A stretch of DNA of 36,062 nucleotides, from NCBI GenBank assembly GCA_903922465.1, contig CAIXTV010000096.1:1-36062 (forward strand). The letters are read 5' to 3'. Numbering within the stretch: position 1 is the stretch's first letter; each line of letters opens with the position of its first letter. The notes under the pieces were generated by a model, which saw only the letters and a program-made list of their open reading frames with translations, made no database searches and was not told where the DNA came from. Source of the DNA: an uncultured bacterium. Its GTDB lineage: Bacteria; Bacteroidota; Bacteroidia; Bacteroidales; CAIXTV01. A program made the translations under genes and the position numbers. Positions 9,635 to 36,062 of this stretch are shown here, one piece after another.

Positions 9635-9845
9635 AACTTTTATTTCGAATAACAATACAAACAATGAAAAATGTTATTTTTTTTTATCAACAATGCTAAT
9701 CTCCCCCTTAGATAAATTATCAGAAGAGCGCTTTAAGCAAACTTCAGCATCATTTGAATTCATCAATAAATAATCATCTATAAATTTTTAATTAATTGAT
9801 ATACTGACACAAAGTGTGGGAAATAAAACAAAAATAAAGAATGAT

Positions 9846-10025
9846 GTCGGAGTTTTTCGCGAAAAATATCGTGTCTTATGCCGGCAAAAAACTCAATCTG
9901 CGTCGAGAAACGTGTATTATGTCGGCAAAAAGCTCATACTGCACCGGAAAACGTGTTTTTTGCCGGCAAAAAACTCATTCTGCGCCGGGAAACGTGTATT
10001 TTGGCGACGAAAAACTCAATCTCTG
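9846..10025. repeat. Array 1: tandem 41-bp degenerate repeat
   Basis: Three complete 41-bp units start at 9880, 9921 and 9962, and a partial one starts at 10003. Each begins G(C/T)CGGCAAAAA and carries CTCA near position 13 and AAACGTG near position 29. Units differ at about a quarter of positions but keep exact length. At the left edge (9846-9872) GAGTTTTTCGCG is an inverted match to the AAAAACTC part of the units. Because 41 is not a multiple of 3, all three forward frames stay open and encode rotated versions of one peptide. This is a property of the repeat, not evidence for a gene. Confidence 0.85.
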
Positions 10026-10263
10026 GGAACAATTGCTTCTTGCGAAATCAAAAAACACGTTTGCAGAAAACAATTGGCAAATATTTATAGTGGATTATTA
10101 ATGCCTAAAATTAAAAATGGTTCAGTAATATTTTTTAATAATGTGTTTGAAATTAAATTATGTGTATTTTTACAATGTATTTAGGTGGAGCTGAAAACCA
10201 CTTGAAAAAACAGGGCGGAACCTGAAAAGCCTTATGATTAGGGGGAAATAATGAATCAAAATA

Positions 10264-20881: not shown

Positions 20882-21007
20882 TTCTAAAAAAACCTTCCAC
20901 GCCATATTAAACCTCAGGATGGCTCAAAGTGAAATTTCTTAGAAATACTACGTTTGAATTAGGCCTCAAAATATTGCTTTTAAATGCGTATTTTGTGTTA
21001 GTATAGC

Positions 21008-21312
21008 TCAAAATAATTGTAGAAGACTATCCTAGAAGTTTAGCATGCTTCTCAACAACTGTTTTTGACTATCCCAAAGTTTTAGTATGGTTCAAAAACT
21101 TTATTTTACGCTATACAGAAATCCGGCATAGTCCAAAATTAGTATTTTGAACCATACTAAAAAGTTAGGAGCTATATCTACAACTATTTTGAACTATGCT
21201 AAAAAATTAGGAACTATATATACAAGTGTTTTGAACTATGCTAAAGAGTTAGGATATGTAAAAATAAGTATTTTGAAGCATACTAAAGAAATAGTATACT
21301 TATATACAAAAA
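21008..21312. repeat. Array 2: 42-bp tandem repeat with an inverted left block
   Basis: Four units of exactly 42 bp start at 21145, 21187, 21229 and 21271. Each starts TTTTGAA and carries TATGCTAAA or CATACTAAA, and the first three have TTAGGA. The GAACTAT motif recurs about every 21 bp (alternating 20 and 22), so each unit is two half units. To the left (21008-21144) similar units run in the opposite orientation. TTTTAGTATGGTTCAAAA (21080-21097) is a perfect 18-bp inverted match to 21145-21162. A transcript or single strand could fold back on itself. Confidence 0.87.
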
Positions 21313-21452
21313 TCGCGACTTTTTAAACGCCGACTACCATTTTAACATGCAATATATGAGGTGATTACGATTTTGTTATTATTTCAATTATTTTAATTTT
21401 AAAATTATAGACCAAAAAAATAAAAAAAATGAGAAGTAATCAAAATACAATG

Positions 21453-21460
21453 TATATTTG
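21453..21460 (+). promoter_or_regulatory. -7 promoter box (TATATTTG) of P2
   Basis: This is an exact TAnnTTTG match 51 bases before the P2 ATG and 140 bases after the end of array 2. Confidence 0.55.
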
Positions 21461-21511
21461 TCGCATTAAATAATAAATGATACAGTACATAAAAATCAAA
21501 AATTAAAAATC

Positions 21512-22459
21512 ATGATCAATTTACAAGTCTTTTTTGATGGCTTATTCCTCGATTTAGCCATAACCTATTTACGTTTAAGTATTTTCACCAGAGATGTTTT
21601 GTTGAATTTAACCAATAACAATCCAGGAGGAATTTACACCGATTCTATTAACGCAACACAATCGGCTAACAATAATCTCGAATCGATTATGTTGGCAAAA
21701 ACCAGCGACTTAGGCACTCGTGCTGGAGGTGTAAGTGCCAAAAACATCGCCCGCCGCAACTTAGAAATTTATTGCGCCAACCACATCGGCTGGGCAAGAG
21801 CACTATTTGGCGGCAAAGACGACCCACGTTTCATTGCCACCTTTCCAAAACTCACCAAAGCATTCTATAATGTGGCAGGACCTGTATTCGAAGTCAACAT
21901 AGAAGCACTTATTAGCAAAGCACTCCTCTATTCATCGGTCTTAGGCCCAGAATTCGAATCCGATTTAACGGAATTATATGCCGCCTACACCTCAGCCGAC
22001 GAAGCCCTTGGCTCTTCAAAAAGCGCAGTTCGCACCGATATCGTAACCGAACAAATGGCCGCAGAGGTGCTCTCCGACCAGCTTACCGATGTTGTCCTAT
22101 TAGTTGCTCGCAACAACAGAAAAAGCCAAACAGCTGCTAAACTATATTTTAATCTCGATTTATTATATCCACACACCGGAAAAGAAATTCACAAAGGCAA
22201 AATAGCAGCCCACGCCGAGGCTGAAGTTTGCCCAATTGACTATAGTCATGGCAAGCGCACACATATTTACATAACAGGTGCAACTCGCCTCACTTTCGGG
22301 ATGAAGCTCAACGGTGTTAAAGTTGGCGAAACCATTAGCCTCGATCATGGCGAATCTGGAAATGAACCCTTCAGTTTTTATTTCACAAATGGCACTAGCA
22401 TTTATGTTATTAACGATACCGCAATCGAAGGTATGTATCAGTTGGATATCATTGCATAG
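21512..22459 (+). CDS. Unknown protein P2: helical domain plus C-terminal beta domain, next to the 42-bp array
   Basis: This 315-residue protein has no recognised family. Residues ~1-225 look helical and alanine/leucine-rich (LESIMLAKTSDLGTRAGGVS; KNIARRNLEIYCANHIGWAR; EVLSDQLTDVVLLVARNNRK) and include YFNL at 212-215. Residues 250-315 are beta-rich (THIYITGATRLTFGMKLNGV ... FSFYFTNGTSIYVIND ... MYQLDII). This matches P1 in length, motif position and domain order. No signal peptide or membrane segment is obvious, although the first 25 residues are fairly hydrophobic. It has its own promoter box and terminator. Codons end in C more often than in the neighbouring T9SS genes. It is a stand-alone gene with array 2 ending 199 bases upstream. 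Function unknown. Confidence 0.82.
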   Translation: MINLQVFFDGLFLDLAITYLRLSIFTRDVLLNLTNNNPGGIYTDSINATQSANNNLESIMLAKTSDLGTRAGGVSAKNIARRNLEIYCANHIGWARALFGGKDDPRFIATFPKLTKAFYNVAGPVFEVNIEALISKALLYSSVLGPEFESDLTELYAAYTSADEALGSSKSAVRTDIVTEQMAAEVLSDQLTDVVLLVARNNRKSQTAAKLYFNLDLLYPHTGKEIHKGKIAAHAEAEVCPIDYSHGKRTHIYITGATRLTFGMKLNGVKVGETISLDHGESGNEPFSFYFTNGTSIYVINDTAIEGMYQLDIIA

Positions 22460-35426: not shown

Positions 35427-35664
35427 TTCTGATGTTTAAAAAAAGAATGAAGCAACTCCTCCTTTCTTAATTCCTCGTCAGCTTACCGTTTTATAGGCCT
35501 AACAATATATATGCCCACAGCAAGCCTTGCTGTGGGCATCGCTCCCCTGAAAACCCATCTTGTCCCCGTTCAAAACAACATCCCTCATTAGCATTTCATC
35601 TGCATTTTTGATGAATTAAATAAAAATCACCCTATCCTAAAATAAACACCGCTTCTTATCCCAA
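35427..35664. other. Intergenic region after the giant T9SS gene
   Basis: It contains a strong palindrome (35511-35539: ATGCCCACAGCA pairing with TGCTGTGGGCAT, 12-bp stem, 5-base loop) without a T-run, probably a REP-like element or transcript-end structure. The stretch 35540-35643 shows nothing else. A degenerate first unit of array 3 may start at 35644. Confidence 0.6.
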
Positions 35665-36062
35665 GCGCTCCCAATGTCTTATTAAGCTTTCCCAATGTCT
35701 TATTAAGCTTTCCCGATGTCTTATTAAGCTTTCCCGATGTTCCATTAATGACGCGGAGTGTAATAAAAATGCTTCGGAGTGTAATAAAAATGTCGCGGAG
35801 TGTAATAAAAATGTCGCGGAGTGTAATAAAAAAGTTGCGAGATGTAATGAAAAAGACGCGGAGTGTAATAAAAATGTCGCGGAGTGTAATAAAAAAGTTG
35901 CGAGATGTAATGAAAAAGACGCGGAGTGTAATGAAAAACTTTCCGGATGTTCTGTTAATGAGTCAGAATGTAATGAAAAACTTTCCGGATGTTCTGTTAA
36001 TGAGTCAGAATGTAATGAAAAACTTTCCGAGCGTAATGAAAATGTCACCCAGTGTAATAAAA
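35665..36062. repeat. Array 3: 21-bp tandem repeat, at least 19 units, continuing past the window
   Basis: Nineteen consecutive units keep exact 21-bp spacing with no insertion or deletion. Unit families change along the array: GCTTTCCCGATGTCTTATTA types (35665-35748), then TGTCGCGGAGTGTAATAAAA types (35749-35937), then alternating ACTTTCCGGATGTTCTGTTA and TGAGTCAGAATGTAATGAAA types. Higher-order repeats are visible: a three-unit (63-bp) block and a two-unit (42-bp) block each occur twice. Because 21 is divisible by 3, the minus strand shows an open heptapeptide-repeat frame, which is likely an artefact. Confidence 0.93.

Follow-up and report, generated by a model that had tools for sequence, protein, structure and literature searches.

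The DNA stretch analysed here, 36,062 nucleotides long and referred to below as the window, carries two genes, P1 and P2, each with a tandem repeat array and a promoter-like element upstream, and it raises the question of whether protein and repeats belong together or merely happen to stand side by side. A sequence-only reading had taken the same layout at two independent loci to make chance less likely. Its interpretation is supported by the analysis described below; a dyad within the repeat unit and the presence of arrays elsewhere without a family gene were observed in addition and had not been foreseen. Protein and repeats look like a matched pair, the purpose of which is unknown.

Relationship of P1 and P2

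On the evidence of profile comparison, P1 and P2 are homologues and their loci are paralogous: hhalign of separately built subfamily alignments gave a probability of 95.2 and an E value of 2.5e-8 over 242 columns. The lack of similarity that would have refuted the sequence-only reading was therefore not found, and the ORFs have the similar lengths it described (325 and 315 aa), but the two loci cannot count as independent, since they are homologous. Searches of the own genome at E <= 0.001 gave four more places with P2 and six with P1, and a gene on contig C217 was reached from both; the own-genome paralogues of P2 share 70, 50, 45 and 22% identity with it. Neither P1 nor P2 matched Pfam or NCBIfam, and a 19-row family profile compared with the PDB by sequence found no match (best E 0.071).

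AF2 models of the two proteins (pLDDT 92.8 and 92.5, from 66- and 55-row alignments) predict a common order of elements, two helices of 56-59 residues followed by a beta domain; the models were not superposed. The predicted long helices span residues 43-99 and 146-201 in P2 and 44-99 and 143-201 in P1, the last helix covers 208-212 and 215-219, and the first beta strand begins at residue 225 and 233, respectively. The proposed succession of helical and beta-rich parts is thus borne out in both models, with the beta part beginning somewhat earlier than the residue 250/253 given for it. The motif Y-F-[D/N]-L lies where it had been placed, with residue 212 the first of YFNL in P2 and of YFDL in P1. 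In fold searches, in which the helical domain was not queried alone, the beta domain resembled jelly-roll, GOLD and cupin domains (PirA: Z 11.6, rmsd 2.6, 98 aligned). The helical part matched the McpS ligand-binding domain in the search with P2 (Z 9.9, rmsd 3.3, 189 aligned) and APPL BAR in the search with P1 (Z 7.7, rmsd 4.4, 126 aligned); judged from predicted models, these matches fall in a range that may reflect only a common arrangement. Large toxin chains were present in the fold-search lists at low Z and were not accepted as relatives.

Each gene has the TAnnTTTG element ascribed to it, TATATTTG 59 nt before the ATG of P2 and TAACTTTG 52 nt before that of P1, the former fitting the consensus of the Bacteroidota -7 promoter element. 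Across the family, 27 of 69 genes have TAnnTTTG no further than 100 nt from the ATG, where shuffles would give 4.2 (proteins shorter than 180 aa were excluded from this set of 69). The 42-bp array upstream of P2 was recovered by TRF and a repeat search, with 42-bp units at 21143-21310 (and 41-bp units at 9870-10022 in the P1 array), but it is longer than had been stated. The features of the window are collected in Table 1. By eye, the first ORF of the window also contains coding 126-bp tandem repeats, at 1522-2372, that resemble the leucine-rich-repeat type.

Table 1. Positions of family genes, promoter-like elements, arrays and dyad sites in the window
Feature	Position	Strand	Description
P1	8605-9582	-	325-aa ORF, paralogue of P2
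TAACTTTG promoter-like element of P1	9627-9634	-	TAnnTTTG pattern, 52 nt before ATG
P1 array	9845-10056		41-bp period; unit with GCCGGC-centred palindrome; 93% copy on C91 without P1
P2 array	20991-21325 (approx.)		42-bp period; left part inverted relative to right part
Dyad site 1 (TATCCTAGAAGTTTAGCATG)	21028-21047		PWM score 19.6
Dyad site 2	21070-21089		PWM score 19.0
Dyad site 3	21153-21172		PWM score 13.1; 83 bp after site 2
Dyad site 4	21195-21214		PWM score 13.1
Dyad site 5 (TATGCTAAAGAGTTAGGATA)	21237-21256		PWM score 18.2; one of two exact TATnCTA(N6)TAGnATA places in the genome
Dyad site 6	21279-21298		PWM score 12.4
TATATTTG promoter-like element of P2	21453-21460	+	TAnnTTTG pattern, 59 nt before ATG
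P2	21512-22459	+	315-aa ORF, family protein; predicted long helical bundle to ~212, jelly-roll-like beta domain 225-314
Third array	35644-36062		21/42-bp period, cut by contig end; relatives on C305, C67 and C275

Extent and composition of the family

The family to which P1 and P2 belong is uncharacterised and consists of about 230 helical residues, usually with a beta domain added. At least 18 members are encoded in the own genome, where a search with a 12-row profile at E < 1e-13 returned 18 places, including the 12 sequences it was built from; the same profile matched 1 of 59 other relatives. With the 19-row profile, matches were obtained in 18 of 393 genomes of the order and in 3 of 395 genomes sampled across the phylum, the own genome being counted in both; one order-level match (G203) was judged false and removed. 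The family is present also in other Bacteroidota, and a homologue of 52% identity occurs in the MAG uncultured Bacteroidetes bacterium Kiruna_bin-09093. Iteration from the protein on C305 recovered 73 of the 74 main-profile hits and added four, and the distant members therefore belong to the same family. Members in G558 and G215 and one in G372 have 228-258 aa and lack the beta domain. In the member on C195 (L043), which has a 43-bp array, a CarboxypepD_reg-like domain takes the place of the usual C-terminal beta domain.

Ten Pfam families were listed at E <= 0.1 for 19 members, none of them a transposase, an initiator or a ToxN-like endoribonuclease; one helical-only member matched GlfT2_domain3 at E 0.0024, below the cut-off of that model, and PADLOC returned for the 19 members one weak hit in one member (PDC-M68B, E 0.0095). 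No DNA-binding domain was recognised in the family. The net charge of the helical part averaged +0.6 (SD 4.9) over 69 proteins and is -3 in P2, with a helical pI below 6 in 19 and above 8.5 in 29 of the 69. Six pairs gave dN/dS values of ~0.09 to 0.47, which indicates purifying selection on the proteins. A phage or plasmid origin was considered and rejected, as a plasmid search with P2 gave no hit and none of 73 candidate stretches in viral contigs was related to the P2 subfamily. Clustering of neighbouring genes revealed no constant partner: the largest non-family cluster comprised 16 loci, which we take by eye to encode surface proteins of the secretion-signal type, and the next ones 7, 5 and 4. 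Two related members without arrays, L047 (C254) and L048 (C98b), lie divergent to genes that by eye resemble type I restriction HsdR subunits.

Association of arrays with family genes

The association was assessed for 71 family genes, from which C105 (40-aa frame), G297_C133 (79-aa frame) and G203_C21 (a 64-residue match in a frame with a stop, false by eye) had been excluded; three have less than 200 nt upstream and could not be tested, which left 68. An array was called where windowed self-identity reached at least 0.70 at lags 15-65 in the 700 nt upstream, and for background genes the same criterion was limited to periods of 21n +/- 1. A non-coding array was found upstream of 54 of the 68 family genes, with periods of 42 (36 arrays), 41 (10), 43 (5) and 21 (3) and no other, compared with 19 of 287 background genes in the own genome and 11 of 253 in other family-carrying genomes (together 30/540; Fisher p 4e-42); in genomes without the family the count was 1 of 232. 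Because the 540 background genes contain at least four distant members (C60, G151:C49, G097:C153 and G320:C34), this control is conservative. An earlier control gave an array at 11 of 258 other ORFs, P1 and P2 themselves included. The design shared by P1 and P2 thus recurs across the family at a rate beyond chance.

The association is directional, with arrays upstream of 54/68 family genes versus downstream of 5/68. Fourteen of the 68 have no upstream array, among them G106_C382, G558_C2 and G558_C1_1863839, which lack it but have an array of period 41-42 downstream. Four of five distant members are preceded by a 21- or 43-bp array (C60, C305, G151:C49 and G097:C153; G320:C34 is not), and upstream of the Kiruna_bin-09093 homologue stands a 42-bp array of 12 sites.

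A dyad in the arrays of the P2 subfamily

The repeat unit of the P2 subfamily contains a 20-bp dyad, roughly TATnCTAnnnnnnTAGnATA, which recurs mostly each 42 bp in seven arrays from three genomes, namely those of P2, C53, C125, C122, G151_C201 and the Kiruna_bin-09093 MAG and the gene-less array on C9. Without C9, the information content of the dyad in the remaining six arrays was 14.5, against 8.35 +/- 0.83 (maximum 10.6) in 60 random sets of six, and an alternative null gave the P2 clade a z of 8.4 for content and 7.6 for dyad symmetry. The exact pattern occurs in the own genome only in the P2 array and in its gene-less relative on C9, which retains five dyad sites. Sites are exactly 42 bp apart in the MAG (L254; 12 sites), C125 (6) and C122 (6), while C53 has degenerate sites, the weak ones of which break the regular spacing. 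The inversion of the left part of the P2 array is accounted for by the palindromic unit, and the register is held across it to within one base (83 = 2 x 42 - 1) because the site itself is palindromic.

At its fourth base the half-site is variable, but the two halves do not covary there (Watson-Crick fraction 0.39 versus 0.35 expected, 49 sites in seven arrays), which suits a pair of protein half-sites more than an RNA stem; pairs 5 and 6, where paralogues differ in both halves at once, are compatible with either. The 49 sites were, however, chosen by a matrix that was built on the same sequences and symmetrised. Among 12 protein clades, motif conservation exceeded z = 3 in three (P2, 8.4; G012a, 3.9; C150, 3.5), the G012a clade including a near-identical pair, and the other nine lay between -1.6 and 1.9. 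Site sequence accordingly follows protein subfamily strongly for that of P2 and weakly elsewhere.

Properties of the repeat units

Array sequences are mostly unlike between paralogues and the period hardly varies; unit similarity nevertheless follows protein similarity (Mantel r 0.29, p 0.0005, 53 arrays). Arrays in cis to family genes have units that diverge 21-23% from their consensus. G012a and G151_C94, from different families of the order, encode proteins of 95% identity (dS 0.37) and have nearly the same unit, in 7.5 and 10.6 copies. Palindromes in the unit consensus exceeded shuffles at p < 0.05 in 18 of 54 cis rows (Fisher chi2 240 on 108 df), in 5 of 16 background arrays of 41-43 bp and in 1 of 18 of 21 bp; the count of 54 still includes G206_C12, whose picked stretch reads N and which was dropped from later array-sequence tests. 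Folding was more stable than in shuffles (z < -2) for 30 sense and 33 antisense strands of 53 arrays, with a null that inflates z for tandem arrays, and showed no strand preference, the sense strand being the more stable in 20 of them and the antisense strand in 28.

A coding role of the arrays was rejected: 3-base periodicity of substitutions at p < 0.05 was limited to 2 of 37 cis 42-bp, 1 of 16 cis 41/43-bp and 0 of 33 background arrays, and periods of 41 and 43 bp exist. Open frames outnumbered those in column-permuted arrays (33 versus 17.9 expected in the 42-bp set), and since the excess is also seen in the 41/43-bp arrays (6 versus 1.2) it is not evidence of coding. Intrinsic curvature, computed from wedge values, was 0.55 versus 0.47 and 0.67 versus 0.56 degrees per bp relative to column-permuted arrays, with p <= 0.05 in 7 of 53 and 6 of 33 arrays; so modest an excess is not a convincing explanation, though curvature is not excluded. 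TRF reported 0% indels for 64 of 87 arrays, a figure that is biased, as the arrays were defined by ungapped self-similarity, and that was not used as evidence. Contigs C88, C71, C125 and C195 of the assembly end inside arrays, as does the contig of the window.

Arrays without family genes

Arrays are not confined to family genes. The own-genome background (560 kb) contained 33 non-coding arrays, 31 of them of period 21n +/- 1, compared with 12 (11) in the 389 kb sampled from other family-carrying genomes and 3 (2) in the 361 kb from genomes lacking the family. Family-carrying and family-less genomes differ in rate at p 0.016 if the own genome is left out and at p 0.0001 if it is included. This comparison may be biased, since sampling was not random: 24 of the 40 own-genome regions lie on contigs already listed by array-relative searches (mostly chance hits), and the family-lacking genomes were picked for few contigs, with 2 of 20 regions shorter than 1.3 kb. 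The main profile found no family member in the own-genome background. With a wider profile two came to light there, C60, which lies 30 nt downstream of an array, and another at a contig end; the background of other genomes yielded three, two of them with an array. Several background arrays lie between convergent genes and not at promoters.

Relatives of individual arrays were also found apart from the corresponding gene. The P1 array and its flank have a 93% copy of 391 gapless bases among other genes on C91, without P1; on C9, where no P2-like gene is present, lies a 71% relative of the whole P2 intergenic region, promoter included; and the C125 array has a 79% relative on C78, with the likeness limited to the array. 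The C305 relative of the third array of the window adjoins a distant family member. No relative in the compared set was found for 34 of 53 non-coding arrays (862 kb of own-genome loci). A DUF805 RNA (Rfam RF03081) at 10180-10248 of the window adjoins the P1 array. Two further copies of this RNA lie on C146 near another array-bearing family gene, and the C91 copy has by eye an apparent GC-rich hairpin insertion within the DUF805-like RNA (L251:1863-1895). Because the P1 array lies upstream of the DUF805 RNA and was copied together with that flank, it is possibly not P1's own.

Alternative explanations

One alternative, unlikely in our judgement yet by no means negligible, is that the arrays are minisatellites in mobile or formerly mobile elements like BrickBuilt/PgRS and that family genes adjoin them for other reasons such as hitchhiking, without protein binding. 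Arrays are indeed widespread without a family gene, the C91 copy and the C9 relative lack P1 and a P2-like gene, and 23-nt and 41-nt tandem repeats inside MITEs are described in the available part of PMC4596501. Hitchhiking, however, hardly explains a frequency of 54/68 versus 30/540 or the preference for upstream over downstream positions, nor does it explain a P2-subfamily dyad conserved across organisms. In P. gingivalis, as far as the accessible text of PMC4596501 goes, each element type has one sequence, whereas 34 of 53 arrays here are without a relative in the sample, and the restriction of C125-C78 similarity to the array also argues against a mobile element. As to the terminal inverted repeats and target duplications of a MITE, three array pairs aligned with their flanks, without a systematic scan for such ends, showed likeness whose extent varied from pair to pair.

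We give little credence to a second possibility, that the array is transcribed into a repeat RNA which the protein binds, as with ToxI RNA and ToxN in type III toxin-antitoxin systems. A tandem array upstream of the gene, the palindromes above chance and the many arrays that fold more stably than shuffles would suit it, but folding favours no consistent strand, the fourth dyad pair does not covary, the period stays at 41-43 or 21 whatever the sequence, a promoter-like element stands no more than 100 nt from the start in 27/69 genes, and the protein is in AF2 models a long helical bundle plus beta domain, not a ToxN-type barrel. Improbable, in our estimation, is that the arrays are variable-number promoter switches in which copy number tunes expression with no dedicated binding protein. 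Their location upstream of promoter-like elements and the difference in copies between the near-identical orthologues G012a and G151_C94 are what such switches would show; unit divergence of ~21% speaks against frequent recent slippage in most arrays, and the dyad and the gene-less arrays are left unexplained.

Comparison with known systems

In RAYT/REP systems the gene is flanked by its own repeat type and relatives of the repeat occur elsewhere without the gene, the RAYTs being TnpA-REP transposases. The present arrays likewise have dispersed gene-less relatives (P1 on C91, P2 on C9, C125 on C78), but Pfam assigned none of 19 members to a transposase family and the repeats are tandem phased arrays. 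Iterons of plasmid replication origins and operator or centromere arrays present sites phased at about two turns (20-22 bp) that are bound cooperatively by a protein encoded next door; unlike these, the arrays described here lie on chromosomal contigs and accompany many paralogues with unlike sequences, and no initiator-type Pfam match was seen in the 19 members. Type III toxin-antitoxin loci (ToxIN) also carry a tandem repeat array upstream of a protein gene, from which our loci differ in protein fold, in the separate promoter-like element and in the absence of a strand-specific RNA folding signal.

Among the nearest described counterparts, and likewise from Bacteroidota, are the MITEs BrickBuilt and PgRS/464 of Porphyromonas gingivalis, which contain 23-nt (BrickBuilt) or 41-nt (PgRS) tandem repeats, BrickBuilt occurring 19 times in ATCC 33277 (PMC4596501, available part). 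These elements are likewise intergenic; they have one repeat sequence per type and IS5-type terminal inverted repeats, and no linked family gene was seen in the portion of that paper available (PMC4596501), unlike the present arrays, whose period is 21 or 41-43, whose sequence is array-specific and which often adjoin a family gene. TAACTGA direct repeats, with a 7-base unit, are abundant between genes in Beggiatoaceae, Cyanobacteria and some Bacteroidetes and reach 43 copies in some Bacteroidetes and Cyanobacteria; they are a single fixed heptamer, discussed as a possible post-transcriptional signal, with no linked protein family in the part of the source at hand (PMC4679880). To the extent that these sources were available, each compared system lacks, or is not shown to share, a defining feature of the family/array pairing.

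Proposed explanation and implications

We tentatively favour, with somewhat less than even confidence, the explanation that the arrays are rows of protein sites in phase with the helix, to which the product of the adjacent family gene probably binds; this binding, any transcription of the arrays and their function are at the level of inference. With four helical turns to each 42-bp unit, the palindromic sites, one per unit, would all face the same side of the DNA, and successive sites would be filled cooperatively by a protein dimer, for which the neighbouring family member is the likeliest candidate. Array occupancy could then set the protein's own expression via the promoter between array and gene, and the same protein would also dock at the related arrays that lack a gene. 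The neighbouring protein is the first candidate because in the P2 branch the site follows the subfamily and because the association is with this family, and auto-control is plausible because of the excess of TAnnTTTG near the start of family genes.

Several observations stand against binding: no DNA-binding domain is recognised, and many members, P2 included, are neutral to acidic in charge. Motif conservation is weak outside the P2 subfamily, 14/68 members have no upstream array, most own-genome background arrays adjoin no family gene and several of them lie between convergent genes, the 21-bp background arrays show no palindrome excess, and the C53 site is degenerate with broken spacing. The P1 array, moreover, may not belong to P1, the DUF805 RNA flank having been copied along with it.

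An open-access literature search recognised no paper that describes these arrays with this family. What would be new is the pairing of the family with phased, paralogue-specific arrays, less so if the arrays are ordinary MITEs. A more far-reaching possibility, speculative and on present evidence rather unlikely, is a new protein/DNA-array class in which one genome holds about twenty paralogous proteins, all using a 21-bp ruler but each paired with an array type of its own, besides dispersed arrays that would number a few hundred by extrapolation (31 were counted in 560 kb). The arrays would serve as orthogonal address labels for organising or regulating the chromosome, or would be spread by the proteins. 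In many genomes phased repeat arrays go with a protein family that neither Pfam nor NCBIfam models, and array density among the sampled genomes is higher where the family is present than where it is absent. The P2-subfamily dyad makes the matter directly testable with one protein and one oligonucleotide. If the proteins do read the arrays, they would constitute a natural set of matched protein/site pairs on one ruler and a new mode of DNA recognition, and they could provide an explanation for a large class of intergenic repeats in Bacteroidota.
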